Source of the DNA: a virus
Length of the DNA: 40,731 nucleotides
Strand: one strand, 5' to 3'
IMG/VR virus record: IMGVR_UViG_3300043395_002180
Location: 1 to 40,731 of that record
Below the pieces are notes generated by a model. That model saw only the letters and a list, made by a program, of their open reading frames with translations. It was not told the DNA's origin and made no database searches. The position numbers and the translations under genes were made by a program. Below are positions 9,376 to 40,731 of this stretch, piece after piece. How positions within the stretch are numbered: position 1 is the stretch's first letter; each line of letters starts with the position of its first letter.

Positions 9376-11988
9376 TTAATAAAGTGCTTGCCAATCATTA
9401 CCATCCCAAAAGAATGGTTTAATTGTATCTCCACTAGAACTAACAATAAAACTACCAGAAATTGGATTTGTTGGATTTGTTGTTCTTGGTGTAAGTATTA
9501 AAATATCATTTATAGTTGCTGACCCAGTTACTTTAAATGAACCACTTATTTGAGCCAAACCTCCATTATTGATATATAAGTTACTTCCAGAGTTTAAGAT
9601 AAGATTAGAACTACTTGTCAATAAAGTTGCATCACTTACTGCAGTTGAACTTACTATCAAAGAACCAGTTATTATTTGATTTCCTACGAATGTATTTGCA
9701 GTTAGTGTTGCAAATCCAGAAAGTTGTCCAGACCCAGATATTAAAGTTGCTGCTTTTAATGATGCTGTATATGCTTCTAATCCGTTGACCTCTCCTCTTA
9801 TAGAACCGGTAAATGTGTTAAGAGATGCGGTTGTTTGTAATATTCTATTTCTTACTAAATCATTTGAACTTGTATATGAATTTAAAGATGCCGTTGCTAT
9901 TCCTAATTGAGATGTATCACCACCACCTGCTCCAAATCCCAATGCTGTAATTTGTGCAGCTCCACTTATCAATGTGGTTGCTTTTAATGATGCCGTATAT
10001 GCCTCAATACCATTTACTTCCGCTCTTATAGAACCAGTAAAATTATTTAGTAGAGTTGTATCTGCAGTTGATGATGATACAAATCCAAAATTAGTTATTT
10101 GTTGAGATGAACTTATTACTCCATTTGGAAGTGTTGCTACAACTGATGATGTATATTGATTAAATGATTGTGTTGTTACTAAATGTGCATCGTATGGAAT
10201 GTGATTGATTAATAAAGATGCTGTTCCTAAATTAGCAAATAAATCAAAACTACCACTTTCACTAATTGTTATTTGTGTTTGAATTCCACCACTATCTCCA
10301 TAAGTGAATCTATCCTGTCCATTCATACCATATAAACTTATGGATGTCAAAGTATCTCCACCAGCGTACAATCCTAAGAATTGGTTTCCAACTACAGTCA
10401 TTGAACCCATTCCCAATCCAACTGAACCATTGCCATCACCAAACCAAATTCTAGGTTCATTATCACCACTTCCCATATAAAGTGCACCAGATATAGTTTG
10501 ATTACCAACAAATGTGTTTGAACCAGTTGTTGCAAATGATGATGAGTTGATATTTGCACCACCTGCTACAAGTGATGATGTTGCTAATAAAGTTGCCTTA
10601 GAACCACTACCACCAACCCAAATATATCCTTCGGCTAATGATGCTGTAAGTGTTCCCTTTATGTTTGTATCTTTTGCTACAGTTACACCAGATGATGAAA
10701 TTATTAATTGTGGATTATTCCATTGAGAATTTGCATGTAATTCAAATGCGGTATCTTGAGTTGTACCAAATGAAGCTCTACCATCATTCCAAATAAATCC
10801 ACCAAATTGATATGCTGAAGGAGATGTATTTCCAAAATTATCTAAATTAAAAGTATCATTTGCAATTGTAAATGCCCAAGGAAAATCACTATTAACTCTT
10901 AAATTTAATACAGTCTCACCACTTCCAGTTAAAATTTGTGTTCCGTAAAATGTGTTTGAACCAGTTGTTGCAAATGAACCACTATCCGCTAATATTGAAA
11001 TTCCAGATGTACCACTCGTACCATGCGAACCTGCGCTACCAGTTATAGTTAAACCACTTGTACCAGATGTACCATGCGAACCTGCGCTACCAGTTATAGT
11101 TAAACCACTTGTACCAGATGTACCATGCGAACCTGCGCTACCAGTTATAGTTAAACCACTTGTACCAGATGTACCATGCGAACCTGCGCTACCTGTTATA
11201 GTTAATCCAGACGTTCCGCTTGTACCATTAGTTCCTGCACTACCTGTTATAGTTAATCCAGACGTTCCGCTTGTACCATTAGTTCCTGCACTACCTGTTA
11301 TAGTTAATCCAGACGTTCCGCTTGTACCATTAGTTCCTGCACTACCAGTCATTGAAATACCGCTTGTTCCAGATGTCCCATTTGTACCAACTCCACCGCC
11401 CGCTATATTAACTCCGTTTAAAAATATTGAACCTGTTACAATTAGTGAACCTGTAATTTGTGCTTCACCTTCATATGGAAATCCTGCTCCAGTACCACCA
11501 CCCAAAGATGATGTTGGAATTATAATACTTACATTTTCAGGTCCACCTACCCAAACATATCCTTCTTTAAGAGATGCGGTAAGAGAACCTGTAAGATTAA
11601 TATCTTGTATTTGAATTTGATTATCCGCATTTATAGAAATTGATGCGGTTTCATTATTATCACCAATAAAATAAATTGTTCCTTTTGAAATCCAAAGGTC
11701 TTTCCAAGCATTTGTTTGTGAACCTAAACTAAATGATGATGTTAAATTACCAGCTGCGGTATTTGGTATAATTGAACCTGATATATAAAGTGAACTACTT
11801 AATCTATTACCAAAAGTTCCAGATGTTCCGGAAGTACCATCTCTACCACTAACACCTGCCGATGCTATTGTTAGTAAAGGTTGAGTTGTTTGGACATTAA
11901 TTTGTGTAACAGCGTTTTCTACTGCTACGTTAGTCTTTGGGACTTCAACTTGGACAGTTGTTATATCTTTTTTTATTTCAACTGACAT
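9376..11988 (-). CDS. Collagen-like, Ser/Thr-rich long tail fibre
   Basis: The 870-residue protein has a short helical N-terminus (residues 1-40), then a Gly-rich block with GTSGTSG. Residues about 205-325 are a 17-residue tandem repeat of the form GTSGTSGLTITGSAG(TN/SH), a collagen-like run in which Thr and Ser occupy many positions. The rest alternates TGS/SGS turns, motifs of the kind ATGSNTFVGNQ and SLKATTLISG, and ends in FIVSSSGDTIKPFFWDGNDW. This is the layout of a trimeric phage fibre shaft. The stop of the preceding 125-residue gene lies one base away, and that gene is probably its partner. With many exposed Ser/Thr residues it is a plausible substrate for the O-heptosyltransferase at 32031-33179, but this is hypothesis. 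Confidence 0.85.
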   Translation of the reverse strand: MSVEIKKDITTVQVEVPKTNVAVENAVTQINVQTTQPLLTIASAGVSGRDGTSGTSGTFGNRLSSSLYISGSIIPNTAAGNLTSSFSLGSQTNAWKDLWISKGTIYFIGDNNETASISINADNQIQIQDINLTGSLTASLKEGYVWVGGPENVSIIIPTSSLGGGTGAGFPYEGEAQITGSLIVTGSIFLNGVNIAGGGVGTNGTSGTSGISMTGSAGTNGTSGTSGLTITGSAGTNGTSGTSGLTITGSAGTNGTSGTSGLTITGSAGSHGTSGTSGLTITGSAGSHGTSGTSGLTITGSAGSHGTSGTSGLTITGSAGSHGTSGTSGISILADSGSFATTGSNTFYGTQILTGSGETVLNLRVNSDFPWAFTIANDTFNLDNFGNTSPSAYQFGGFIWNDGRASFGTTQDTAFELHANSQWNNPQLIISSSGVTVAKDTNIKGTLTASLAEGYIWVGGSGSKATLLATSSLVAGGANINSSSFATTGSNTFVGNQTISGALYMGSGDNEPRIWFGDGNGSVGLGMGSMTVVGNQFLGLYAGGDTLTSISLYGMNGQDRFTYGDSGGIQTQITISESGSFDLFANLGTASLLINHIPYDAHLVTTQSFNQYTSSVVATLPNGVISSSQQITNFGFVSSSTADTTLLNNFTGSIRAEVNGIEAYTASLKATTLISGAAQITALGFGAGGGDTSQLGIATASLNSYTSSNDLVRNRILQTTASLNTFTGSIRGEVNGLEAYTASLKAATLISGSGQLSGFATLTANTFVGNQIITGSLIVSSTAVSDATLLTSSSNLILNSGSNLYINNGGLAQISGSFKVTGSATINDILILTPRTTNPTNPISGSFIVSSSGDTIKPFFWDGNDWQALY
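11021..11377 (-). repeat. 51-base tandem repeat, seven units in two DNA subfamilies
   Basis: Units begin at 11021, 11072, 11123 and 11174 (subfamily one, encoding a ...GSAGSH end) and at 11225, 11276 and 11327 (subfamily two, encoding ...GSAGTN). Within each subfamily the DNA is almost identical, while the two subfamilies use different codons for the same protein repeat. This points to two separate recent expansions by slippage or recombination inside the fibre shaft. Confidence 0.9.
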
Positions 11989-14411: not shown

Positions 14412-14975
14412 TTATAAAACCTTTATAAACCTCCCACTTTCATCTTTTTTTAAATTTCTATTTTTTAACCACATTCTTCTTTCTTCATATAGTCTCAATC
14501 CTTCTTCTTCACCATTTCTTTCTTTAAACCACTCTAATGAATAACGTCCTTTTGCTTTTTCTTTTTGTTTTTGTTTTGCTGAATCGGAATGTGATTTTCC
14601 ATACATTGGATTTTTTTCACCAGAGAATTTTTTGCTTAAAGTATTTTTAAGTTTTTCAACTAATTCAGGATTTTCTTTCCACATATTTCTTCCATTACCA
14701 CCATATGTATCATTATATCCTTTTTTAACTGAATTAAACTTTTTTATAAGGCTTTCTTCAATAATTTGTGCATTTTCTTCTCCATCACATTCTGCTATTA
14801 TTTCTTTTGTAAAAGCATCCCATCCATATTTTCTTATTGCTTTATATAAAGACCTATGCATAATTTTTTTTGCACCTGCTTTATGTTCAATCATTCTTTG
14901 TTCAAAATTACAAGTTCTACCAATATAAACTTTTCCGCTTGGAGAAGTTAATTTGTAAATAAATTGTTTATCCAT
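14412..14975 (-). CDS. Free-standing GIY-YIG homing endonuclease
   Basis: The 187-residue protein starts at the ATG at 14973-14975. An in-frame ATG at 15020 would lie at the U tract of the capsid terminator and upstream of the promoter motif, so it is rejected. Residues 5-21 hold the catalytic-domain signature FIYKLTSPSGKVYIGRT, with Arg27 and a Glu at 73-74 in the expected order. Residues 120-140 (NPMYGKSHSDSAKQKQKEK) match the NUMOD3 DNA-binding repeat of homing nucleases, and the C-terminus is basic. T4-like phages carry similar Seg-type nucleases that cut related genomes lacking them and spread by gene conversion. It sits directly after the capsid gene as a cassette with its own promoter motif. 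Confidence 0.9.
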   Translation of the reverse strand: MDKQFIYKLTSPSGKVYIGRTCNFEQRMIEHKAGAKKIMHRSLYKAIRKYGWDAFTKEIIAECDGEENAQIIEESLIKKFNSVKKGYNDTYGGNGRNMWKENPELVEKLKNTLSKKFSGEKNPMYGKSHSDSAKQKQKEKAKGRYSLEWFKERNGEEEGLRLYEERRMWLKNRNLKKDESGRFIKVL

Positions 14976-14989
14976 AAAACTCACTTTTA

Positions 14990-14998
14990 TATAAGTAT
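14990..14998 (-). promoter_or_regulatory. Putative promoter motif for homing endonuclease
   Basis: The minus strand reads ATACTTATA, a one-base variant of the shared motif, 14 bases before the ATG at 14975. The same variant occurs upstream of the zinc-finger gene (27138-27146). Confidence 0.45.
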
Positions 14999-15020
14999 TA
15001 TGAATTCTACCAAAAAGCAT

Positions 15021-24820: not shown

Positions 24821-26422
24821 TTACAGCCATTGTGTAAGGTCCTCTATATCATCTCCTATCCTCATTTTCCAAGGGTTATCATTTCTATCAGAAGGTCCAT
24901 ATACCCCAGCGTGCTGCATATTTGAAGAAATTCCTCCCAATGTTCTTTTTGTTAGGTCTATTCCTTCTTGTCTTAAACGTAATGCGGTATCCCTTACCCA
25001 TAACCCTATACAAAAAGCCATAGTAAGGTCATCGTTATAACTTTTCATAGCTTCAGCTCTACCATTATGAAATATGAATGTAAACAATTCATCTATAAGT
25101 CTATTTGAACGAACTGTTACGGCTTTTTCTCTAAAATATTCATCTAATTTAGAAATAATAAGTGGTCTAGTTTTAGTTGTAGTTGAAAATCCAGCAACCA
25201 TACCTCTTTCGTCTGCTCTATATTTGTTTTTCATTTGATGTTCTACATCCACATATTTTAAATCCTTACTCATATAGAATAGATTTTTATATTGTCTATC
25301 TATACATTGTTGAATACATGCCCAACCAATGTTTGAGTTTTCTACTACAAGCAAAGCATCATTATATTCAGTTGATAAGTTTGTCAAAAAATTTCCAAAA
25401 TCTTTAGTATCAATTTTACCTTTATATTCAGCTACTTGTGTTGCATTGATTATATCAATTACATGGCATGCTGAAAAGTCAGAACCATCACCTCTTGCCA
25501 CGTCAGCTACAACCATATAAGAACCATTTGCGGTTGGGTATTCCCATCTCCAAAGGTTTCCATCAAATCCAGTTTTTTCAATTGGGTCTTGACAATATGT
25601 TTCTTTATAAAACATAAGTAGTTCTGGGTCTATAACTGTATCACCAGAAGATACGAAGTCACAATCACACTCTTGCGCTGCTTTTTTCTGCCCTAATAGT
25701 TTTTCTTGCTCATCTCTCCAAGTTTGGTCTCTTTCAGGGTGTACTGTCCAATGTAGTTTAATAGTATTAAATGGATTTGTACCATCTTCTGCACCTAACC
25801 AAGTTTTATGAAACCAATTACCAACACCATTTGGGGTAGATAATGCAATACAACTACCACCCGTTGATAATGTAGATTGAGCAGCTACCCAAATCTCATC
25901 AATTTCATCAATGAATGCAGCCTCATCAAATATAAGTAAAGATAGGGCTTCAGAACGTCCTGCATCCGGTGAAGATGCAATAGCCTTAATTTGAGAACCA
26001 TTTTGTAAACGAAGGGAAAGTTTGTTATCTTCCAAAGAACCACCTTTTAACCAACTAGGAAGTAATTCATGCATTACTCTTACCTTAGTTACTAAGTTTT
26101 TTGCTACATCTTGCTTAGTAGCAATAACCAACACATTGAAATCTGTATTAAATAACATTTTCCAAAGTGAATATCCAGCAGAAAGTGTTGATATACCAGT
26201 TTGACGAGATTTAAGAACTATGTTAAATCTATTTTTATGAAATTCAGTTAAAGTTTTTTCTTGAAATGGAAAAAGGTGAAATGGTATCTTACCTCTCACC
26301 GGATGCTGAATCATACAATACTTTTTCATAAAGTGTATTGGGTCCGTAGCACACTTTTTGTATTCTTCAGCTATAATCTCTTTTAAAGATTTTTTTTGTG
26401 TTATTCCTAAATTCTGAGCCAT
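24821..26422 (-). CDS. 17: Terminase large subunit, gp17-like
   Basis: The 533-residue protein is the DNA-packaging ATPase and nuclease. The ATPase has an adenine-binding region HLFPFQEKTL (49-58), Walker A SRQTGIST (72-79), Walker B LLIFDE (162-167) with catalytic Glu167, and coupling motif STP (195-197). The RNase H-fold nuclease shows its three acidic sites at VVADVARGDGSDF (Asp307), LLVVENSNIG (Glu361) and SYNDDLTMAF (Asp464/465). The length is somewhat below T4 gp17 (610). It starts at an ATG that shares a base with the stop of the zinc-finger gene, so both are co-translated, and no gene of gp16 sequence type is otherwise seen. Confidence 0.97.
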   Translation of the reverse strand: MAQNLGITQKKSLKEIIAEEYKKCATDPIHFMKKYCMIQHPVRGKIPFHLFPFQEKTLTEFHKNRFNIVLKSRQTGISTLSAGYSLWKMLFNTDFNVLVIATKQDVAKNLVTKVRVMHELLPSWLKGGSLEDNKLSLRLQNGSQIKAIASSPDAGRSEALSLLIFDEAAFIDEIDEIWVAAQSTLSTGGSCIALSTPNGVGNWFHKTWLGAEDGTNPFNTIKLHWTVHPERDQTWRDEQEKLLGQKKAAQECDCDFVSSGDTVIDPELLMFYKETYCQDPIEKTGFDGNLWRWEYPTANGSYMVVADVARGDGSDFSACHVIDIINATQVAEYKGKIDTKDFGNFLTNLSTEYNDALLVVENSNIGWACIQQCIDRQYKNLFYMSKDLKYVDVEHQMKNKYRADERGMVAGFSTTTKTRPLIISKLDEYFREKAVTVRSNRLIDELFTFIFHNGRAEAMKSYNDDLTMAFCIGLWVRDTALRLRQEGIDLTKRTLGGISSNMQHAGVYGPSDRNDNPWKMRIGDDIEDLTQWL

Positions 26423-27166: not shown

Positions 27167-30100
27167 TTACTTTTCAAAGAAGATACCCAATATTTGATTT
27201 AGGGGTGCAAATGCTCCAGTCAATTTATAGGTATTTCCCCCATAAATGAAAACTATACCTTCATTTGGAACAATTTTTTCAAATCCACCCAAAGCGTTTA
27301 ATCTTTGTAATTCCAATTTAAGTTTTTGAATTTTCTTTGGGTCACCACTTGCTTTAACCTGTTGTATGGTTGATTCTAATCTAGAAACCATTTGTTTTTT
27401 AGCTGAATCAGGATTTGCTGTAAGTACTGAACTCATAAATGAAAGTACGTCTGCGCCCACACCTAAAAATATTTCTTCAAATCTCATTAGATTTTGCTTA
27501 GATATTTTTTGCTGGTCTTGCTTATCAGTTTGTTCAGCCCAAGCTCTTAATTTTGCGTCTTGAATTGTATTAATACGGAATGATTTATCACCAAAAGCCC
27601 ATCGCTTAACCAATCCTATTTTTTCTTGTGTATCTAATTTTTTTGCTTTCTTTTCTACAAAATCCGTCCACCAAGCCTGATGATAATCTGCAACTCCATC
27701 TGAATCGCTTAATCCAAATTCAGATTGTAATTTATTAATCATTGAAATATATTTTCCCTGCAATTTGGAAAGATGTTCTGATTTTGGTAGTTTTTGTATT
27801 GGTGGTCCTTGGATTGTATATTTAGATTGAACATGTGCATTTACTTGCTTAATCATACCAGCCAATACTTTAGCAGCCTGTTGATTTTCTCCAATTATAT
27901 TTCCTTCTTTATCATATTCAAACGTACCATGGAATACTAATAATGGTTGTCCGTAAGGAATTACATTTACCGATGTTGGATATATTACTTCCAAATTCAT
28001 AAAACAACTTCCACCTTTGAATATCATTTTACGTTGTGGTTCTGATAATTGAGATATCGCCATAGAAAGGTCTTTCATAGCAAAATTGTATGCATCGGTT
28101 AATCCACCTCTGCCTGCAAACTTATCCGCTACTTGTCCTATTGTCATAGCTCCTTCACCTTTGTTTTTTAAATGCGATTTGTTACGAGCAGCAACTAATC
28201 TACCATTTACCCAACTAACTGCCAATGCCTGCCCATCTGTCTTCTCTCTTGCTAATTCTAAATCACCATTGAGAGCTCTTACTACTATTTGTTTAAGGTC
28301 ACCAAATGTTAAACCCATCTCAATATCAAATGGGTGGGCCATATGTCCATATGCACCACCTTCTAAAATTAATTCTTCTTTTAAAAAATCAGCTGGTGCT
28401 TTTAGTCCTAATTTAGCTATTCTACTATATTTTGATGTTTTGTCATCAGAATGATTATGTAATGGTAATGTTTGGTCTTTTGAACTTTTTATTTCTCTTT
28501 CTGCTGGACTATCATCAAATAACTCCCAGCCTTCCAATCCATCTAAATAATAATCTTGATTTTCAAAATCGTCCCAATCCGAATTCCAAATATAACCAGT
28601 TGTTGTATTACCATCATTATAAAATGCTCCATTTGCTGTTGTTTCGTTTATGTTTCTTTCATCAACAACCGCTAATCTAGTGTAGTAAGATGGGTGTTCG
28701 TATAAATGGTCTAATGCAATTTCTTTTGCTATATTAGAATCTTTTGTATGTTCTCTTTCTATTGCATACCCTTTAATAAATTCGTTTTTGATTGTTTGTA
28801 CATCTACGTTGTGATGTTTTGCAATATCTTTAAGAGTCATTCCATCTGCTTTACCACCTTTAAGAACGTTATCTTCTTTTACTGGTTCATATCCTTTATT
28901 TTGTTTATCTTTTGTATTTGTTTGATGTCCTACTTCTTTTTCTCTATCATCATCAAAATCAATTGTATCTAATTCAGCAGAATGGCCATAATCAGGAGCA
29001 TAAGTTGATGTTTTATGATGATGGTTAAATCTATCGTCTGCACCACCTTTTTTTACGGGTTTGTGATTTTTTGTATTTATAACTTCTTTTACCTTAGTGT
29101 ATTCTTCACTACCATCTTTATCCAACTTAGATTTTAATTTCTTAACATCCTTTGGATTTGGTGCACCATTAATATATCCACCAGCTAAACTTAAACCAAC
29201 ACCAGCTCCGCCAGGCAATCCCATCTCATCTAATAATGATTGTTCCATTTCATCAATAATTTCATTAATATCTTCTTTTGAAATTATTTGTGGTTTTTGA
29301 TTTTTAGGTAATTCCCAAAATCTTTTTGGTTTTTCCAAAGGAACTTCTCTATTAACTTCTTGCCAATTTTCCACAGTGTGAGGGTCATCCGCTGGATTAA
29401 GAGTACTCTGAACAACATTTTGTACTTTATAAATAGCTTTTCTAAATTGGGATTCTTTATCTTTAGTTTTACCTCTACCCCTCATTGCATCTGCAGTAGG
29501 TTCTTCTAACTGAACATATCCACCTTGTTTATACCAATTTTCAGGCTTAGCTTTATTTAATATTCTTTTTTGACCATCAGCTACAAATGACATATCAGGT
29601 TCATCTCCTGCTGTAAATCCACCACTTCCGCCTGTTGCTTCTTTTAAATTTTCTTTTTTAGGAATTCTAAATGTTACTACTTTCTTACCATTAATTGTTG
29701 GCATTCCCCACTCATCTTTACCTATGGATTTAACAATTACTTTTTTGTTCTTAAATTTACCCATAAGGATTTGGTCACCAACCTTTACATTTAATTTTAT
29801 TTCTTCGTTGATATATTCTTTAAGAGATTTAAGTTTGAGAGTTATTAATTTAAATATTTGGTCATCAAACTTAGGGTATGCTTTCATAAACCCTTTCTTT
29901 CTATCTTCAGTAGTTCCTGCACTTAACCAATAACGAACATCAGTACCACTAATAGCATTAGGTTGTGCAGGTGCTGCATACACATATCCTTTATCTAAAT
30001 ACCCTTGTTCTACTTTACCTTTATATGGAGTAAAATATTTGCCACTTAAACGAGAAGAATCTTTTTCACCTACTACAGTTATAAAACCAGTTGTATCTTC

Positions 30101-30415
30101 ATCAAATTTATTTAGAATTTCTTCAGGAGCATAAGGATTACGAATATTGACAATTTTGTTTGATGGTACACCAAACATCTTCATCATTATTGCTTTCTTT
30201 TCCTTAAAATTAAATGGAGATTTTTTTGAATCGGTTACATTTGAAGTTCCTATATATACGTTGTCCTTTCCGAACTTCTTAACCAAATGGTCATACGTTG
30301 CGTAGTGACCCTTATGAAATGGTTGAAAGCGGCCTGAATAGACAACAACCACTTTGTCTATCTTAGCCGCTTCTCCCAATATTGTTTCCACCAAAAATTT
30401 TGCTAATCCCTTCAT
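27167..30415 (-). CDS. Fusion of HxGH nucleotidyltransferase and ligase-like domain
   Basis: The 1082-residue protein has three recognisable parts. Residues 20-190 form an HxGH nucleotidyltransferase of the NMN adenylyltransferase/cytidylyltransferase fold: YSGRFQPFHKGH (26-37), KSPFNFKEKKAIM, and ISGTDVR near 154-160. Residues about 520-580 hold TLKDIAKHHNVDVQTIKNEF and AKEIALDHLYEHPSYYTRL, a small helical module I recall as DUF5661-like. Residues 700-1082 look like a covalent nucleotidyltransferase (ligase) core: motif I EKTDGQ (Lys725), motif III-like FMNLEVIYP (Glu809), motif IV-like NEGIVF (Glu1052) and motif V-like YKLTG (Lys1064). About 240 residues between the last two pairs are helical. 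The central linker is charged and low in complexity. Possible roles are RNA repair, NAD+ synthesis or nucleic-acid end joining. It is not a virion motif, yet it sits among head genes. Confidence 0.85.
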   Translation of the reverse strand: MKGLAKFLVETILGEAAKIDKVVVVYSGRFQPFHKGHYATYDHLVKKFGKDNVYIGTSNVTDSKKSPFNFKEKKAIMMKMFGVPSNKIVNIRNPYAPEEILNKFDEDTTGFITVVGEKDSSRLSGKYFTPYKGKVEQGYLDKGYVYAAPAQPNAISGTDVRYWLSAGTTEDRKKGFMKAYPKFDDQIFKLITLKLKSLKEYINEEIKLNVKVGDQILMGKFKNKKVIVKSIGKDEWGMPTINGKKVVTFRIPKKENLKEATGGSGGFTAGDEPDMSFVADGQKRILNKAKPENWYKQGGYVQLEEPTADAMRGRGKTKDKESQFRKAIYKVQNVVQSTLNPADDPHTVENWQEVNREVPLEKPKRFWELPKNQKPQIISKEDINEIIDEMEQSLLDEMGLPGGAGVGLSLAGGYINGAPNPKDVKKLKSKLDKDGSEEYTKVKEVINTKNHKPVKKGGADDRFNHHHKTSTYAPDYGHSAELDTIDFDDDREKEVGHQTNTKDKQNKGYEPVKEDNVLKGGKADGMTLKDIAKHHNVDVQTIKNEFIKGYAIEREHTKDSNIAKEIALDHLYEHPSYYTRLAVVDERNINETTANGAFYNDGNTTTGYIWNSDWDDFENQDYYLDGLEGWELFDDSPAEREIKSSKDQTLPLHNHSDDKTSKYSRIAKLGLKAPADFLKEELILEGGAYGHMAHPFDIEMGLTFGDLKQIVVRALNGDLELAREKTDGQALAVSWVNGRLVAARNKSHLKNKGEGAMTIGQVADKFAGRGGLTDAYNFAMKDLSMAISQLSEPQRKMIFKGGSCFMNLEVIYPTSVNVIPYGQPLLVFHGTFEYDKEGNIIGENQQAAKVLAGMIKQVNAHVQSKYTIQGPPIQKLPKSEHLSKLQGKYISMINKLQSEFGLSDSDGVADYHQAWWTDFVEKKAKKLDTQEKIGLVKRWAFGDKSFRINTIQDAKLRAWAEQTDKQDQQKISKQNLMRFEEIFLGVGADVLSFMSSVLTANPDSAKKQMVSRLESTIQQVKASGDPKKIQKLKLELQRLNALGGFEKIVPNEGIVFIYGGNTYKLTGAFAPLNQILGIFFEK

Positions 30416-30445: not shown

Positions 30446-30856
30446 TTATTCTTTTACAACTTTCATACCAGTTGGACCTTCCTGCGCTGGTGATTGTTGT
30501 TGCTGTCTTTGCATTTCTGCTAATTGCTTTTTGGTAGGAGCCCCTGGTTGATATTGAAGTGTTCCGTTTTGAATATCCAATCTACATTGTGGATATTTCT
30601 CATCTAACCCATCAATAACATCTCTAAGTTGGATATTTAATACTTTAAATTCATCTTCACTTTTTTCTAAAAAGTCATCCATCCTTACCATTTCGTCTTG
30701 AATTTCTTTTCTACGAATGTAGATTTGTCCAAAATCTAAAATTAAACCTTGAATTTTTTGATTTAATTCAGTAATTGATTTTAGAGTATCCGCATCAATT
30801 TTTGCGGTTTCAATTGTAATTTGCTGTTGTTGAGGTATGTTATCTAACCCTGCCAT
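30446..30856 (-). CDS. Coiled-coil protein, paralogue of the gene at 35389
   Basis: The 136-residue protein has a Gln-rich N-terminus, a coiled coil over residues 15-90, and a short conserved tail GLDEKYPQCRLDIQNGTLQY followed by a Pro/Gln-rich end. The 85-residue protein encoded at 35389-35646 shares the layout: FGQ-x-x-x-R in place of LGQVEVR, then LENKYPNGEVSLQEGTVTF in place of the tail above. The pair therefore arose by duplication. The function is unknown; such small coiled coils are common in T4-like genomes of uncultured phages. It follows the sugar operon by 49 bases and has its own motif. Confidence 0.75.
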   Translation of the reverse strand: MAGLDNIPQQQQITIETAKIDADTLKSITELNQKIQGLILDFGQIYIRRKEIQDEMVRMDDFLEKSEDEFKVLNIQLRDVIDGLDEKYPQCRLDIQNGTLQYQPGAPTKKQLAEMQRQQQQSPAQEGPTGMKVVKE

Positions 30857-30905: not shown

Positions 30906-31652
30906 TTAGGTTGTAAATACAGAAACTCCTTTTTTCTTTACAACTTCCCCTGCACAATGGTTTGCCCACTCAATGGATTCTTCCACATTTTGGCAATTTA
31001 AATATCTTGCAACAAACCCAGCCACAAATGTATCACCAGCCCCACTTACATCTGCATTTTCTATCTTTTTGGTTTTTATTACCTTTCCTTTATATGAAGC
31101 CCCATTACCATCTAATGTTATAATTATTTTATCTTCTAACCATTTGTTTTCCAAAATTATATCGTGATTATTCTGAGCTTCAAATCTATTAATTTTAATA
31201 AAAGTAACATCTTTACACCAATCACCTAAATGCTTTTTTGTATCCAAAATAACTAATTTGTGTAGTTTAGAAATTTGAGCTATATCATCTTCTGTAAGAA
31301 ATCCTTTACAATAATCTGATATTACAATTGCATCATATGATACAAAATCGGGTAAATCATATATATTAATTCTTTCTACCGAATCGTTCTCATCAACTCT
31401 TAAATACAATTCATTTGTTGTTTCATTTACATAACGAGTTTTTGTAATACTTCCGTTATCAGAAAATATATCCACATCAACAGCCATAGAAGATAAATTT
31501 AAAGCTGTGTTTTCTGCCATACCCCTACCATATATCTCTTGTGTTGGTTCAAATACAGGCCCATTTCCTTCTGGTGATTTTCTTTTAGATGTTCCATAAA
31601 TAAAAACATCTGTGCAGCTTTCTCCAATTACTAAAACTTTACATTTTTTCAT
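30906..31652 (-). CDS. Short heptose-7-phosphate kinase-like protein (PfkB/HldE-N type)
   Basis: The 248-residue protein is a PfkB-family sugar kinase closest in layout to the N-terminal half of HldE (RfaE), which phosphorylates D-glycero-D-manno-heptose 7-phosphate at O1. Visible are VLVIGESCTDVFIYG (6-20), KSPEGNGPVFEP (25-36), SITKTRYV (68-75), ISDYCKGFL (111-119), and the anion-hole and catalytic motif DVSGAGDTF (201-209, Asp207). It is shorter than the usual roughly 315 residues: the segment that normally follows the early Gly-Gly-Ala-x-N-x-A motif, before ITKTR, is missing about 50-60 residues. I chose the ATG at 31652; a GTG one codon earlier is possible. It overlaps the nucleotidyltransferase gene by 14 bases, so both are co-translated. 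Activity is not proven. Confidence 0.85.
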   Translation of the reverse strand: MKKCKVLVIGESCTDVFIYGTSKRKSPEGNGPVFEPTQEIYGRGMAENTALNLSSMAVDVDIFSDNGSITKTRYVNETTNELYLRVDENDSVERINIYDLPDFVSYDAIVISDYCKGFLTEDDIAQISKLHKLVILDTKKHLGDWCKDVTFIKINRFEAQNNHDIILENKWLEDKIIITLDGNGASYKGKVIKTKKIENADVSGAGDTFVAGFVARYLNCQNVEESIEWANHCAGEVVKKKGVSVFTT

Positions 31653-32031
31653 CACCTAATATTTTTGTAGTACTTAAACCCTCTATCTTTTCAAAGAATT
31701 CTATTTTTGGAACATATTCTACTCCTATTATTTCGTGATATTTGTAATCATCTCCAATTACCATAATATCCGGCTCCCATTCTTTTATCCTTTCTATCAA
31801 CTCATCATCAGAACCAAAAGATACAACAGAATCAACACCATTAATAGCGGATACAAACTCCATACGATTATCCAACGTATTAAATGGTCTTCCCATTCCT
31901 TTTTTTGAACGAACTCTTTCATCCGTATCAATACCCACTCGTAAGATACCCAATGATGCAGCATGTAACATAAGTCTGATATGTCCAATATGTAAAACAT
32001 CAAAAGTTCCGTTTACCCAAATTTTTTTCAT
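31639..32031 (-). CDS. Heptose-1-phosphate adenylyltransferase (HldE-C/HldC type)
   Basis: The 130-residue protein is a single-domain cytidylyltransferase-fold enzyme of the HldE C-terminal (RfaE domain II) kind, which transfers AMP to D-glycero-beta-D-manno-heptose 1-phosphate to give ADP-heptose. It has GTFDVLHIGH (8-17) with the HxGH motif, RSKKGMGRPFN (41-51), RMEFVSAINGVDSVVSF (56-72), and GLSTTKI (118-124). Other cytidylyltransferases share this fold, such as the glycerol-3-phosphate type, so the substrate is inferred from the neighbouring kinase and heptosyltransferase. The ATG shares a base with the stop of the heptosyltransferase gene. Together with the kinase gene it is a split form of the bifunctional HldE. 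Confidence 0.9.
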   Translation of the reverse strand: MKKIWVNGTFDVLHIGHIRLMLHAASLGILRVGIDTDERVRSKKGMGRPFNTLDNRMEFVSAINGVDSVVSFGSDDELIERIKEWEPDIMVIGDDYKYHEIIGVEYVPKIEFFEKIEGLSTTKILGDEKM

Positions 32032-33179
32032 TATAGAAATTTCTCTAATTCTTTAATTACCATTTCAGAAGTAATTGATTTTGTACATTCAAATTGTCTT
32101 TCAGTTCCTTTATGGTCTGGGCACCAATTCCAATCACCAGGATCCAATCTCAATCGGTTAAAGCATCCTTCGCATTTTCCAATAGGTGCTCCGATACGAA
32201 TACAATCTTCCATCTCAGCCCATTTATATGAAAACCCACTAATTAATACCGTTGGAACATCTAATGCCCAACTTAACCAACTTAATCCACTACCAATACC
32301 AATAAATGCTTTTGATTTCTTCATTTCATCCATAACCAATTCAATAGGTCCTTCTGGATGTCTTACAATTCCAGATGGTAATTGATTACCCATATAATTT
32401 TCACCTTCTTTTGAAAGAAGTTTTACAACATATCCTTTTTGGTTTAACCAATTCACAACTTCTTGCCAACCGGTTGGATTATTCCAAAATTTAGATTGAG
32501 CTGTACCATGTATCCCTATACAAACTTGTTTATAGTTTGAATCTATTGAAATTTTTCTATGTTTTAATTTTGGTTTTATTTCTTTAAAATCCAATCCCAA
32601 TATATCCGAACACATTTTTTGCATTGTTTGCTTCTTTGGGTCTATTGGATTTTTGTAAATATTAATTGTACTATCTTCATTGTAAAATAACCCAATTGCA
32701 TACATAGCATATAAATTTTCTACCACTACGCCAGGGTTTACAAATTCAATATTTGGATATCTTTCTTCAAATAGTGAATTCATAAAAGTTGATACAACCA
32801 TTTTTGCATTGTGAATTTTTCCAAATTCTTCAACATATGGTAACCATGCCAAACTATCACCCAAAGCTTTTGAATCTAATGCAACATAAACTCTTTTATC
32901 TTTTGCATCAAATAAATGCTGATACCAAAGTTTTCCGTTTTCATATATTTCAATTTTCCAATCAACAAAATATTCTACATTACATCGTGTCCACATATTA
33001 TTACTAATTTCAGAACTGTACATTACAGATCCTGTTTTATTATTAATAAATTTTACTTGATACTTTGATGTTTTTGCTCCTTTAATTTCTACAGTTGCTC
33101 CTCTAACAAAATGTACAAATACTTTATTGTCAATATTTGCTTTATTGTTTAAATTTTTTATTAAATTATCGTATATCAT
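32031..33179 (-). CDS. TibC-like O-heptosyltransferase (GT9-related)
   Basis: The 382-residue protein matches the bacterial autotransporter heptosyltransferase (BAHT) type, of which TibC is best known. These move heptose from ADP-heptose to Ser residues of beta-helical adhesins. Visible features are VYVALDSKALGDSLAWLPYV (97-116), FMNSLFEERYPNIEFVNPG (132-150), the donor-site segment IGIHGTAQSKFW (221-232), GIGSGLSWLSWAL (294-306), and four cysteines at 336, 339, 353 and 365 as in the iron-binding finger of TibC. The start is the ATG at 33179 (TAATG with the previous gene); a TTG three codons earlier is less likely. It is a single complete domain. The acceptor is not encoded as an autotransporter, so a phage or host target must exist. 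Confidence 0.9.
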   Translation of the reverse strand: MIYDNLIKNLNNKANIDNKVFVHFVRGATVEIKGAKTSKYQVKFINNKTGSVMYSSEISNNMWTRCNVEYFVDWKIEIYENGKLWYQHLFDAKDKRVYVALDSKALGDSLAWLPYVEEFGKIHNAKMVVSTFMNSLFEERYPNIEFVNPGVVVENLYAMYAIGLFYNEDSTINIYKNPIDPKKQTMQKMCSDILGLDFKEIKPKLKHRKISIDSNYKQVCIGIHGTAQSKFWNNPTGWQEVVNWLNQKGYVVKLLSKEGENYMGNQLPSGIVRHPEGPIELVMDEMKKSKAFIGIGSGLSWLSWALDVPTVLISGFSYKWAEMEDCIRIGAPIGKCEGCFNRLRLDPGDWNWCPDHKGTERQFECTKSITSEMVIKELEKFL

Positions 33180-35350
33180 TAACTCCAAGTTTTAACTGTT
33201 AAATCTAAAAGTGAATATCCCTCTGCTTGTTTAGAATACATTTTGTTTGTTGTATATCTTTTTTTAGGGTGATGGTAAAACACATGATTATACCAAAGGT
33301 CACCAACATCCCAACCACAATCTTTAATTCTTTCCATCCACCAACCTTTAGTTCGGTTTGGAATCAAATAGCAATGTGCAAGGTCTTGTGCGTGTCCAGT
33401 TAAAGTAAATAATTCATCAATTTTAGTTCTTTCTCTAGATGGATTATTTGCAAATGATATAAAGTATGCATCGTTTAACTCTGACATAAAACATGCTTTA
33501 TTTACAACATCAACAAATTCTTCTAATCCAGAGTAAATAAAAGCATCTGCTTCAAATATTAGTGTATAATCAAAATTTTCTTCATCAATTGTTTCTAACG
33601 CATTTCTATGAGCTAAATAACAACCATAATGTCTACCAGTCATCCAACCCAATCCAGCACCAGGATATAACTCACCGGGCTTATTATCTTTACTAATATG
33701 CTCAGGTCTTCTACAATTTTCAGCAGGTGGTATTCCTTCATAAACTTTATTTACAATTGGTTCATAAACCATACCATATCTTTGTAATTGTTGTAGAGAT
33801 TCTATTGAAACTCTTTCTCTCATATCATCAGGCCTAGTAAGCATATGTTTAATCTGAATACGAGGTTTTCTTCTAACAAATGAACGAAATCCTTGATGAA
33901 ACTGTCCATAAAAGTATTCATTTGCTGCTCGTGTAACTCCGTCAAAAACACCATAATCATCTCCACTAATTATTCCTCCAGGTTTTACTTTATTATACCA
34001 AACATTTAAATCATCCAATAGAGCTTCATAAGAATGTCCGGCATCAATCATTATAAAATCAATACTACTATTTGGAAAATTATTAGCCGCATTTTTAGAT
34101 GTATCTTTTATTGTATTTATTTTTCCGTAATTATTTGATAGTACTGTATTATCAACAAATTCATAAAATATATCTCCATTAAAAGAATTCACAATATTTT
34201 GATGTAGTGCTTCATCATCAGTTCCCTTCCAAGTATCTATTGAAGTAAAATTAATTTTTTTACCTGACTCTTTTATTTTTGATGCTAAATAATTTGTAGA
34301 CTTTCCAAACCAAGCACCAACTTCAACAAATGTTTCTCCCCCAACCGCTCCATCAACTACACTATTATACAATTCAGAGTATGCAAACCAACCAGGTATT
34401 TCATTAAATTCAGGTTGTAGTTTTTCTAAAATAATTCTTTTTGTAAGTTTTAAATCATCATCAATATACGTTACTAATGGATTATTATCATAGGTATCCA
34501 AATATGTGTGCAATTTTCTAAATAAGCAAGGAAGTTTATATGAAAGCGCTTCTTTAACTGATAGTGGATTTAATTCTATTTTTGAAGAAAAATAAAAAAG
34601 GTCACATGCCTCATAAAATGTATCAACATCAGTTCTTTCTCCCCACACAACACAATTTTCAGGTTTGTATTGCATTAGTGGTTTCCAATAACTTTCAAAG
34701 TTCATAGCTTGATTTCCAACAAAATGAAATTTAATTTTATATTTTTCCAATTGCCTTGCTATAGCAAATATTTCACCTTGATTTTTACCTTGAGAAAACA
34801 AACCAACATTAAGAACGTGCTTCCATGTTGGGTCTAATCCTAATTTTTCTTGTGCTTCTTTTTTATTAAATTGATATTCTTCTATTGGATATTCCCAAAC
34901 TAAAGTTTCAATACCTAAATCCATAAATCTCTGCCTACTCCATTCCGAAACAAGCACATATCTATCCGGATGAAAAATTATATCCGATGGATTTGTTAAA
35001 GAACCATGAGTTGAACAAACGATAAAATATTTTCTATCTTTAGAAAATAATTTTTCTACAATATCAATAGGTAAATCATATTCTGGTATCTCTTGAAAAT
35101 GTATAATATCGGGATTGAAAGTTCGTATGAAATCAAAAATTTGTTTTTTGTTTTCTCCCAATGTATGTACAGGAACTAACGATTTAATTCTATTTTTTTG
35201 AACTACAAAAGCATCCCCACCACTATTATTTATTTCAATAACTTGAATTTCAAAGTCATTTAAAAAGTGTTTAATTTGCTTATAGGTATATTGGGGTTGT
35301 CCACCAGTAGAGAGGTGTGGACAGACATATAACAATCTTTTTTTATTCAT
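33179..35350 (-). CDS. Glycosyltransferase-methyltransferase-glycosyltransferase fusion
   Basis: The 723-residue protein joins three enzyme domains. Residues 1-330 resemble a GT-B retaining glycosyltransferase: LLYVCPHLSTGGQPQYTYKQ (5-24), WKHVLNVGLFSQGKNQGEIF near 176, and a donor-site region with FYFSSKIELNPLSVKEAL near 252. Residues about 335-480 are a class I SAM methyltransferase: GETFVEVGAWFGKSTNYLAS, then IDTWKG, FIMIDAGHSYEALLDDLNVW and VKPGGIISGDDYG. Residues about 560-720 resemble GT25-like enzymes: LGWMTGRHYGCYLAHRNAL, then TLIFEADAF with the Glu-x-Asp metal site. The substrate cannot be told from sequence. It heads the sugar operon. A canonical Bacteroidota promoter lies directly at the start codon, and the next gene begins within the stop codon. 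Confidence 0.85.
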   Translation of the reverse strand: MNKKRLLYVCPHLSTGGQPQYTYKQIKHFLNDFEIQVIEINNSGGDAFVVQKNRIKSLVPVHTLGENKKQIFDFIRTFNPDIIHFQEIPEYDLPIDIVEKLFSKDRKYFIVCSTHGSLTNPSDIIFHPDRYVLVSEWSRQRFMDLGIETLVWEYPIEEYQFNKKEAQEKLGLDPTWKHVLNVGLFSQGKNQGEIFAIARQLEKYKIKFHFVGNQAMNFESYWKPLMQYKPENCVVWGERTDVDTFYEACDLFYFSSKIELNPLSVKEALSYKLPCLFRKLHTYLDTYDNNPLVTYIDDDLKLTKRIILEKLQPEFNEIPGWFAYSELYNSVVDGAVGGETFVEVGAWFGKSTNYLASKIKESGKKINFTSIDTWKGTDDEALHQNIVNSFNGDIFYEFVDNTVLSNNYGKINTIKDTSKNAANNFPNSSIDFIMIDAGHSYEALLDDLNVWYNKVKPGGIISGDDYGVFDGVTRAANEYFYGQFHQGFRSFVRRKPRIQIKHMLTRPDDMRERVSIESLQQLQRYGMVYEPIVNKVYEGIPPAENCRRPEHISKDNKPGELYPGAGLGWMTGRHYGCYLAHRNALETIDEENFDYTLIFEADAFIYSGLEEFVDVVNKACFMSELNDAYFISFANNPSRERTKIDELFTLTGHAQDLAHCYLIPNRTKGWWMERIKDCGWDVGDLWYNHVFYHHPKKRYTTNKMYSKQAEGYSLLDLTVKTWS

Positions 35351-35388: not shown

Positions 35389-35646
35389 TTATTCTTCAAA
35401 TGTTACTGTACCTTCTTGTAGACTCACTTCTCCGTTTGGATATTTATTTTCCAAATCCTTTAAAATTTCATCCAATTCTATTTTTATTTTTGTAAAGCTG
35501 TCTTCTAAAGATTTTTTGTATTTTGTTAAATCCAAAAACCTTACTTCAACTTGTCCTAATTCAAAAATAACATCGTTAGAATCTGATTGTAATTTTCTTA
35601 ATTTATCAACAATCTCTTGTGATAATTGTTCTGTTTTTGTTGCCAT
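35389..35646 (-). CDS. Small coiled-coil protein, paralogue of the gene at 30446
   Basis: The 85-residue protein is nearly all coiled coil (VDKLRKLQSDSNDVIFELGQ, then KKSLEDSFTKIKIELDEILK) with a short beta tail KYPNGEVSLQEGTVTFEE. The same tail pattern, KYPQCRLDIQNGTLQY, ends the helical part of the 136-residue protein at 30446-30856. The two genes lie on either side of the sugar operon. I cannot name its function. It starts five bases after the stop of the oxygenase-like gene and is likely co-transcribed with it. Confidence 0.75.
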   Translation of the reverse strand: MATKTEQLSQEIVDKLRKLQSDSNDVIFELGQVEVRFLDLTKYKKSLEDSFTKIKIELDEILKDLENKYPNGEVSLQEGTVTFEE

Positions 35647-39200: not shown

Positions 39201-40731
39201 TTTAGGTATAAACCATTATTAGCACCATTTACACCTCTACCCAATTTCATACCACCTGCGTTCAACAAACCACTAAGTATAAGTGCTTCACCATCCCACT
39301 TCATATAGTTGTTTCCAGAATAATCTTTTATAGATAATCTACCATAAGTTCCTGATGCACCTTGCTCATATAATCCCATCCAAATACCAGGTCTATCATA
39401 TCCAATAACACCAGTACCAGATGTACCAGCTGCACCAGCTGTTGATGGATTATAGCTAGTACCAGATGTTCCTGCCGTACCAACAGTTCCATGCTGACCA
39501 ACTGAAATATATGGGTCGGGTCTACCTCCTGCTAAAATAATATTTGCGTACTTTGATGTATTATTGTATGTACCAACATTAATTGTATTTTTTACATACG
39601 ATTCTTCAAATATTGCAATCTTAGCTGCTACAAAGAATTCTTGGTCACCCAAATATTCCCACCAATCATTGTTACCAGATGGAGTTGGTGCGTGGTAATT
39701 TACTAACACACCATTTTGGTCATATGTATTAGGTCCAGAACCACTAATAGCCGCATAATATTTTACATCATTACCTGTTGCCAAATATGTTACTGCATCT
39801 CTACGATTGTTTGTAGTTTCAACTCCACCAATATAATCTAACGTTGGGTCCCATTCACCTCTCATTACTATACCAGGTCCAGTTTCACCTTCAAATTGTA
39901 CTGATAAAGATTGCGTTTTTAAAAAGGTCTGTCTACCTTCACAATTTATTTCATAAACTATAATAGCTGTTCTATTTGTTTCAGGTGATGTCCAAGATGT
40001 AACGCCAGGCATATTTGCTGTTGTTGTACCTGTCAAATAACTTCCAACTCCCAAATTTCCATTATCTAAAGTAATATGTCCGGATTTTGCTGAAATTTGA
40101 ACTCTAAATTGTTGTTGATAAGATGAACTACCATATGCATCAGTTTGAGCACCAGTAAATCCTGCTGGCTTATTCACCAATGCATAAGTTCCTCTATTTG
40201 CAAAAATTTGTGTAGAGGTATTGGCCAGAGACATTTCACCAGATACTTTATAAACAGCTGCAGCGTTTTCTCTTGTAAGTTTAACATCATATGGTGCAGG
40301 TTCGGTAAATTGAACTGCAAATGACTGAGTTACGAATTCAGTTTGTCTAGTCTTTGGTGTGTTTGCTACATTATTTGAGTATCCTTCAAATTCAACTTTA
40401 TAAACAATTTCACCACTTTTGTTTATTGCTGGTTTATCCCAACCAGAAATATCAGGCATTGCCGCAGGAGTTGTTAAAACTCTATTTGATGGTAATGTTA
40501 TCCAAGGTGATTTATAAAAAATTGAAGCCGATGAATAACCTAATATACCAATTAAGTTATTTAAGTAATCATAATCGGTTGCCTGTGGTGCAGGAAAATT
40601 TCCTGATGTAACATTTATAAGTGGTGTTACTCCTTTAAATGTTGGTAATTTTATTGATGTGCCTGTTAAACTTGTGTTATATAAATCTGCGGTAATAGAT
40701 GTATTCGTATTATCAGCAGAAATTTTATATG
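36299..40731 (-). CDS. Large tail fibre with S74 chaperone domain (5' end outside window)
   Basis: The frame is open to the right edge with no stop, so the ATG at 40459 is internal and the true start lies outside; at least 1476 residues are encoded. The first part has FEGYSN and a repeated QTEFVTQSFAVQF segment with a related copy (KTQSLSVQFEGETGPG). Three copies of a sugar-binding style module follow, such as WASGVAYLTNDIVTYSGNTW. Gly-rich collagen-like blocks (GTAGTSGTS, AAGANGTDGAAGAG) link them. The last 130 residues are a peptidase S74 intramolecular chaperone: SSTIRVKTNI with the Ser and Lys expected of the self-cleaving site, LKPILYSPL, GKQGGFIAEW, and a final coiled coil VPLTKAVQILMDKVEALEAYI. 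S74 domains trimerise fibres and are then cut off. It is likely a receptor-binding fibre. Confidence 0.9.
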   Translation of the reverse strand, partial: YKISADNTNTSITADLYNTSLTGTSIKLPTFKGVTPLINVTSGNFPAPQATDYDYLNNLIGILGYSSASIFYKSPWITLPSNRVLTTPAAMPDISGWDKPAINKSGEIVYKVEFEGYSNNVANTPKTRQTEFVTQSFAVQFTEPAPYDVKLTRENAAAVYKVSGEMSLANTSTQIFANRGTYALVNKPAGFTGAQTDAYGSSSYQQQFRVQISAKSGHITLDNGNLGVGSYLTGTTTANMPGVTSWTSPETNRTAIIVYEINCEGRQTFLKTQSLSVQFEGETGPGIVMRGEWDPTLDYIGGVETTNNRRDAVTYLATGNDVKYYAAISGSGPNTYDQNGVLVNYHAPTPSGNNDWWEYLGDQEFFVAAKIAIFEESYVKNTINVGTYNNTSKYANIILAGGRPDPYISVGQHGTVGTAGTSGTSYNPSTAGAAGTSGTGVIGYDRPGIWMGLYEQGASGTYGRLSIKDYSGNNYMKWDGEALILSGLLNAGGMKLGRGVNGANNGLYLNANNYWYDTGNNFKVGGSSNYLEWDGTTLTLRGSLKQTSAGANEGRLMGAWASGVAYLTNDIVTYSGNTWTSNSDHTSTNNTNAGTGYPGYGPWTIAPISAKTLRMAASSQVFIEAKDGTLSPDWVEFSVSKQNISATTNWTTSPSVTLYNASSGGSTTTTGDTVYLRKADFGSNTLVEVTATADSLSDSISVARVQEGTDGLTIILTNESHTLAAANDGTVSDYNGSGTNILLYEGATQLDYDGVGTAAGKFTVSTAVSNITAGSITDGGNYATVGNHSNMTADQATVTYTISGKKINGDSFSVTKVQSLTKSKQGAAGANGTDGAAGAGVVYRGPFTIGTQYFRNPSAPAAATRRDVVKGNDGAYYLCKLTYTPTDNSTRPPDGGSYTTYWESFGATFSSVATDILLAQNATITRGLVLGQENGTSGFIRSADADTLITGSNPGFYLAEDGQFRFGHNPEDVHYGTVKPPYIKWDNTTLTIRGKIETDDNEISRIGNWKVDNGSFLDSTEQIVLDANNKQIYIADTSDIPRVFVKQGLITTPSTSTTVVLDALTTPSLPASSGVGSVNIDETTFDTTGFSVSIPGTYYLGTPSWSGGDISLTAPISFNGYGFASVHLDIYDTPDYTGNLIWSYTLASTPVGINSGGDEDFTTFTAQAITVTFPAVDTYYIHSRVFVYGYADNAFTIGGTVNPSSVTLNLQQAQTEIGSDGFIVLADNNNYASIKRTTTEPIINIKTNAGYAALQITNSSTSGRAIEVLDGDIFLSGTAGGSGANNNNIRIQGGWIGTNNSTGGIRMATDGSNSVLVGGNFPSQASNVATARLRIGTKLGISGRELIFDSSTIRVKTNIEDYPHNAYDSIKKLKPILYSPLKVIDSTRYLTDGEDDYTSSYPMPNPKEYIGKQGGFIAEWLDEDPEMRRYVSYGVSGSLITKDAINYDMIVVPLTKAVQILMDKVEALEAYISGSN

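Follow-up and report, generated by a model that had tools for sequence, protein, structure and literature searches.

A phage-encoded TibC-type glycosyltransferase cassette and its probable link to Gly-Ser/Thr repeats of the phage's own fibres

We describe a four-gene cassette in a viral genome fragment that is probably a module for virion self-glycosylation, in which a TibC-type enzyme would add sugar to the GTS-rich repeats of the phage's own fibres. Bacteria add heptose to adhesins by means of TibC-type enzymes. Judged by sequence, the enzyme belongs to a TibC-type branch that is separate from the classical autotransporter heptosyltransferases and is partnered with Ser/Thr-rich Gly-X-Y repeat proteins, (GTS/GSS)n. 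The enzyme's family, fold, active site and core status in its clade, the conserved operon and the association with G-S/T-X repeats were all computed here. On balance we also favour a broader view, that this is a second BAHT branch, disseminated mostly by large phages of aquatic habitats, with Gly-(Ser/Thr)-(Ser/Thr) repeats as its dedicated acceptors. In phages it would serve to make fibres with a dense coat of sugar, in some cases on hundreds of possible acceptor triplets, and some bacteria would use a minimal two-gene form consisting of a secreted GTS-repeat protein and the enzyme.

The window (the whole stretch of DNA analysed) is a linear IMG/VR fragment of 40.7 kb from a T4-superfamily-like myovirus. 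Its genes for terminase, portal, protease and major capsid protein share the minus strand. A first-pass annotation of the sequence had noted four coupled genes at 30906-35350, and this is indeed what we find: four minus-strand ORFs, each overlapping the next one by 10 bp (fusion/TibC), 1 bp (TibC/nucleotidyltransferase) and 17 bp (nucleotidyltransferase/kinase) (Table 1). The largest had been read as a fusion of a glycosyltransferase, a methyltransferase and another glycosyltransferase. This reading holds, with Glycos_transf_1 and Methyltransf_24 above the Pfam cut-offs and the GT25-like domain just under its cut-off.

Table 1. Features of the cassette, its flanks and candidate acceptors in the window
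Feature	Position	Strand	Evidence
GT4 + Methyltransf_24 + GT25-like fusion, 723 aa	33179..35350	-	Pfam; accompanies TibC-like gene throughout clade
TibC-type O-heptosyltransferase (GT9/BAHT fold, predicted), 385 aa	32031..33188	-	TIGR04414, PDB, AF2/Foldseek
HldE-C/HldC-like nucleotidyltransferase, 130 aa, substrate assignment putative	31639..32031	-	rfaE_dom_II; phrog_7878
HldE-kinase-like PfkB protein, 249 aa, substrate assignment putative	30906..31655	-	PfkB, rfaE_dom_I, PDB 4e84
Small conserved protein flanking cassette, 85 aa	35389..35646	-	position kept in nearly all clade loci
Small conserved protein on opposite flank of cassette, 136 aa	30446..30856	-	conserved in clade loci
Neighbouring tail fibre, 5'-open ORF, runs off contig end	36299..40729	-	S74-like C-terminal end by eye
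Fibre-like structural protein, 870 aa, candidate acceptor	9376..11988	-	translation, composition
Tandem array of 17-residue repeats	11002..11388	-	Tandem Repeats Finder

The second gene had been called a TibC-like heptosyltransferase, and profile, fold and active-site residues uphold the family call. The protein scores 282.6 bits against TIGR04414 (equivalog cut-off 200) and matches the PDB entries for TibC, 4rap/4rb4, with an E value of 2e-53 (phmmer). An AlphaFold2 model built from 21 sequences (window plus viral; pLDDT 86.6) aligns with crystal TibC 4rap over its whole length (Foldseek TM 0.84, rmsd 2.9) compared to a TM of about 0.5 or less for the LPS heptosyltransferases WaaC/WaaF, and contains the N-terminal beta-barrel and GT-B domain of the TibC fold. 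The key residues known from the TibC structure are Asp110, Thr226, Lys230, Trp305 and the iron-finger cysteines Cys339/342/358/370 (PMC4358343). Their equivalents here, D111, T229, K233 and W304 together with C339/C342/C356/C368, do not vary among 94 viral homologues, 15 from the clade and 79 others. Profile, modelled fold and active-site residues together make the prediction of a real BAHT-fold enzyme a firm one. No autotransporter substrate was seen beside the enzyme in the window.

The partner of this enzyme became apparent from other phages. Among dereplicated viral loci from beyond the window clade, 24 had adequate flanks, and 20 of these have at least 10 Ser/Thr-rich Gly-X-Y triplets within about 10 kb, compared to none of 80 random viral loci (684 kb in total), these proximity counts being uncorrected for phylogeny, length and habitat. 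The largest arrays reach up to 734 triplets (locus L219). The cultured Microcystis phage Mel-JY01 carries the TibC-type enzyme as the C-terminal domain of a 1227-aa protein, near an 805-aa ORF that consists mostly of GTS/GSS triplets (149-triplet score), and a 735-kb megaphage has a GT4-TibC fusion about 6 kb from a GTS/GSS-type repeat ORF. The co-occurring repeat proteins are phage-encoded and fibre-like. The association also appears in the reverse direction: 15 of 29 contigs chosen by a GTS-repeat DNA pattern alone encode a TIGR04414 protein compared to 0 of 22 random contigs (Fisher p 3e-5, uncorrected for length, habitat and ancestry). Enzyme and fibre genes both lie in structural regions, which inflates proximity.

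Bacterial chromosomes show a split among such enzymes. TIGR04414 matches in bacteria fall into two groups by score, a classical one at 484-663 bits and a low one at 304-327 bits, and the phage-type enzymes score 282-327 bits. In our Methylococcales sample, all six low-group enzymes (L157, L158 and L700-L703) lie about 100-240 bp from a small (GTS)n ORF that begins with a signal-peptide-like start; three of these loci share one syntenic site, leaving about four independent sites. The flanks of L157, followed gene by gene, contain housekeeping genes and no prophage; this locus is from Methylobacter luteus IMV-B-3098, and its GTS-repeat gene lies directly upstream of the enzyme gene. By comparison, none of 11 loci of the high group has a (GTS)n stretch beside the enzyme, and most of them adjoin large Ser/Thr/Gly-rich passenger-like ORFs. 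A tree built with a quick method places the phage-type and Methylococcales enzymes apart from the Acetobacteraceae BAHTs (long branch, 1.19; SH-aLRT 100), and the window enzyme falls in the low group by both score and tree.

Within the clade of the window the TibC-type enzyme is core and the donor genes are optional. About 80 close relatives (68-91% identity) are found in freshwater viral contigs as a syntenic block, a recurrence beyond chance, and gene order is conserved for TibC, the fusion, the fibre and both flanking proteins (85 aa and 136 aa). Using a neighbouring 1082-aa protein as a neutral, independent anchor, we found the TibC gene in every anchored contig with sufficient upstream sequence; it sits within the structural cluster, between fibre and terminase. 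Domains related to the fusion are present at 53 of 76 other viral TibC loci. The cyanobacterial host marker psbA was absent in 13 contigs. The interval from TibC to the 136-aa gene occurs in three discrete states, namely empty (47-76 bp), nucleotidyltransferase only (424-448 bp) and nucleotidyltransferase plus kinase (1161-1181 bp), found at 34, 15 and 29 of 78 loci, respectively. The full order of transferase, nucleotidyltransferase and kinase recurs in another lineage whose enzyme is 47% identical (L217, L231), and two further large TibC phages (373 kb and 735 kb) have near-full-length HldE-kinase homologues elsewhere in the genome (301-306 bits).

Both donor genes are assignable at the superfamily level only. 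The third gene had been annotated as a heptose-1-P adenylyltransferase. HldE-C is its best-scoring family in the superfamily (92 bits for rfaE_dom_II, TIGR02199, against 60 bits for glycerol-3-P cytidylyltransferase), but the score stays under the equivalog cut-off of 181.5, and phmmer searches of the PDB favour cytidylyltransferases. The fourth gene, described as heptose-7-P kinase-like, stands as a member of the PfkB family (PF00294, 60 bits) with the GAGDT motif kept and the heptose-7-P kinase 4e84 as its top PDB sequence match; the more specific part of that name is less secure, with 101 bits for rfaE_dom_I (TIGR02198) under a cut-off of 345 and a length of 249 aa against a model of 315 positions. 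GmhA and GmhB families were not found in the window, in agreement with the first-pass annotation, nor in relatives of 274 kb and 136 kb. The host would therefore have to provide heptose 7-phosphate and carry out the phosphatase step. HldD would be dispensable if ADP-D,D-heptose is the donor, as it is for TibC (PMC4358343). Because the kinase and nucleotidyltransferase lie under the equivalog cut-offs and Arg286 of TibC is replaced by Val, we call ADP-heptose a likely donor and go no further. The Val at this site, the scores of the two donor proteins below their cut-offs and the lack of both genes at the empty loci count against our reading of virion self-glycosylation.

A candidate acceptor is present in the window itself. 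The 870-aa fibre-like protein, about 20 kb from the transferase gene, has 28% S+T and 18 GTS triplets, and contains the unit GLTITGSAG[TS][NH]GTSGTS seven times in exact register and once more in part (period 51 bp, 7.3 copies, 90% match, score 377). In this unit a short strand-like LTIT alternates with a Ser/Thr/Gly loop, an arrangement reminiscent, by analogy, of the strand-loop-strand acceptors of BAHTs. Gly-X-Y occurs here as short parts inside the 17-residue units and in relatives as true long runs; the homologue in the 274-kb relative has a 33-triplet (G-S/T-X)n array. The transferase had also been said to lie next to Ser/Thr-rich repeat fibres. A fibre does adjoin the cassette, but it holds merely two short GTS stretches (39410-39436 and 39455-39490), with 7-11 G-X-Y triplets in its homologues from relatives, and the protein with the array is the distant one. 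The acceptor is probably a Gly-Thr-Ser repeat rather than an autotransporter-type passenger. Near TibC in the window clade, at least 10 triplets are found at 1 of 28 loci and at least 7 at 5 of 28, and in the 274-kb member further arrays, of 33-145 triplets, lie some 47-110 kb away from TibC. The slight G-X-Y content close to the enzyme and the distance of tens of kb to the main arrays weigh against self-glycosylation. A beta-helix protein at 3-5294, with one GTS only and 20% S+T, is not preferred as the main acceptor.

From these data we infer the sugar, the acceptor residue and the purpose as follows. The enzyme and the repeat proteins would be made late, and the TibC-type enzyme would put the first sugar, most likely D-glycero-D-manno-heptose from ADP-heptose, on Ser/Thr residues within GTS loops or triplets. 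As acceptors we propose the 17-residue repeat protein and larger (GTS)n proteins expected beyond the window. The GT4-methyltransferase-GT25 fusion may then extend (or cap) and methylate the glycan, and the nucleotidyltransferase and kinase, if present, may boost ADP-heptose from the host's sedoheptulose-derived heptose 7-phosphate. The decorated fibres would then be assembled. Glycosylation could serve to stiffen or protect the fibres, to hide them from receptors, proteases or grazers, or to tune adsorption. We speculate that glycosylated Thr/Ser might stabilise collagen-like helices free of hydroxyproline, or shield the fibres.

The same fibre Ser/Thr could instead receive another sugar from a different NDP-sugar donor, the adenine contact having been lost and the HldE-like pair making a related sugar phosphate. 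Arg286 of TibC contacts adenine, and its loss cripples TibC (PMC4358343). The window enzyme has V285 in place of this arginine, and nearly all phage-type enzymes have Val, Ala, Leu, Ile or Thr at the site, which is occupied by Arg in 36 of the 38 enzymes of the classical set, drawn mostly from Acetobacteraceae. The low HldE scores of the donor pair fit a different sugar too, as do CTP-dependent enzymes among the top PDB matches of the nucleotidyltransferase. Nevertheless, the Thr226, Lys230, Trp305 and Asp110 equivalents are retained and HldE-kinase-like genes recur in TibC-bearing phages. The Gly or Ser that this branch has at the Pro300 site is likewise compatible with heptose, AAH having Ser there and tolerating both heptose epimers (PMC4358343). 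We consider a different donor sugar unlikely.

The first-pass annotation had left three purposes side by side: glycosylation of the phage's own virion, change of the host surface and a decoy. We favour the virion, since in phages as in bacteria this enzyme subfamily goes together with Ser/Thr-rich Gly-X-Y proteins of the fibre or secreted kind, an association that supports it much better than the other two. Modification of host LPS or glycans for superinfection exclusion would suit GT9 as a heptosyltransferase family, and rfaE and glycosyltransferases found in marine cyanophages and pelagimyophages have been ascribed to O-chain change (PMC7029224), with homologues of our kinase in the sugar clusters of S-SM2. 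However, the closest fold is the protein-specific TibC with its N-terminal barrel and iron finger, far ahead of WaaC/WaaF; the gene is core within a structural cluster; and the association with repeat proteins holds in bacterial chromosomes too. Fold, core status and partner association thus disfavour superinfection exclusion through LPS change, which we regard as quite improbable. The substrates known for BAHTs are autotransporters of the host (PMC4358343), and the enzyme might by that precedent act on a host adhesin or secreted protein instead of the virion, but with partners that belong to the phage and look like fibres this is very improbable.

Virion self-glycosylation itself is already known, in mycobacteriophages, whose own glycosyltransferases are described as decorating virion proteins, with capsid and tail tube glycans, in Freeman et al. 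2023 as cited in PMC12619734 and PMC11256854. Compared with that system as so cited, ours has a TibC-type enzyme, fibre repeats as probable acceptors and possible donor-making genes. With TibC and AAH (TIGR04414) it shares the fold, catalytic Asp, phosphate-binding Thr/Lys, Trp, iron-finger Cys4 and a score above the profile cut-off; unlike them, the phage-type enzymes form a separate branch, have lost Arg286, are often fused to GT4 and other domains, are phage-encoded and have a G-S/T-X repeat protein rather than an autotransporter as partner. HldE (RfaE) is the best-matching family for both small proteins and would have the same two activities side by side, but the window proteins are split, shortened, under the equivalog cut-offs and optional in the clade. 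The rfaE and glycosyltransferase clusters of cyanophages and pelagimyophages (S-SM2, P-SSM2) contain a homologous kinase (35-45%) and nucleotidyltransferase, and no TibC match was found among these records (four phage records in all). In the open-access literature we found no paper joining TibC with a phage-encoded enzyme, and none joining phage, heptosyltransferase, virion and O-glycosylation. Within that literature, the enzyme branch, the repeat partner and the spread in large aquatic phages appear to be new.

Our analysis points to a likely substrate for phage glycosyltransferases of a group that is widespread but uncharacterised, and ties them to enormous repeat proteins of the Ser/Thr-Gly type in large freshwater phages, which otherwise resemble junk. 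Glycosylation of phage fibres thereby becomes testable with an enzyme and substrate that are both small enough to express, and in two cultured systems, a methanotroph and a cyanophage. If true, it would also give bacterial O-glycosylation at dense sites a new acceptor sequence.

Finally, we note two minor features of the cassette. The start of the TibC-type gene is called as TTG, with an in-frame ATG three codons further, and the 136-aa flanking protein has weak similarity to the 85-aa protein on the other flank.

Ser/Thr-rich triplet-repeat proteins, the proposed acceptors of TibC-type enzymes, are encoded beside these enzymes in both bacteria and viruses. On chromosomes of the methanotroph order (L157:6917-9119 and L700-L703), the TibC-type enzyme forms a two-gene unit with a secreted (GTS)n protein, and no autotransporter is present in this unit. 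In a gammaproteobacterial MAG (L166:6512-9881), ORFs that resemble lipoproteins and carry (GTS)n and (GSS)n repeats flank the enzyme on both sides.

Among viruses, IMGVR_UViG_3300042503_000802 carries a 2846-residue open frame (L219:5421-13958) which adjoins a TibC-type fusion and is truncated by the locus edge. Its Gly-X-Y triplets, which are rich in Thr, Ser, Asn and Asp, give a score of 734. The cultured Microcystis phage Mel-JY01 (PP395634.1) has an 805-aa (GTS)n ORF on the plus strand (L082:635-3052), antisense to which the deposited annotation places the Pro-rich ORFs WWT39286 and WWT39287. The annotation seems to miss the real fibre gene, except for its end, WWT39288. Mel-JY01 (55%) and Flavobacterium phage immuto (57%) are the closest matches of the window's terminase.

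Features of the window
Feature	Position	Remark
Large structural protein	3-5294	pectate-lyase-like beta-helix stretch; many repeats of type YNE.KCRRDVG.I.DAV.TD..YGGNERS
Homing-endonuclease-like ORF	14412-15020	within structural cluster, adjoining major capsid gene
Terminase	24821-26422	
1082-aa protein	27167-30415	N-terminal cytidylyltransferase-like domain and DUF5661
Small flanking protein	30446-30856	
Nucleotidyltransferase	31639-32031	
Small flanking protein	35389-35646	

Within the cassette, the nucleotidyltransferase may act alone or with a kinase from the host, since 15 of 78 clade loci keep it without the kinase. The position of the 1082-aa protein adjoining the cassette is conserved, and its middle part is variable. 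On either side of the cassette lies a small protein, and the pair appear to be distant paralogues, with cross hits between them of 22-31% over about 80 aa.
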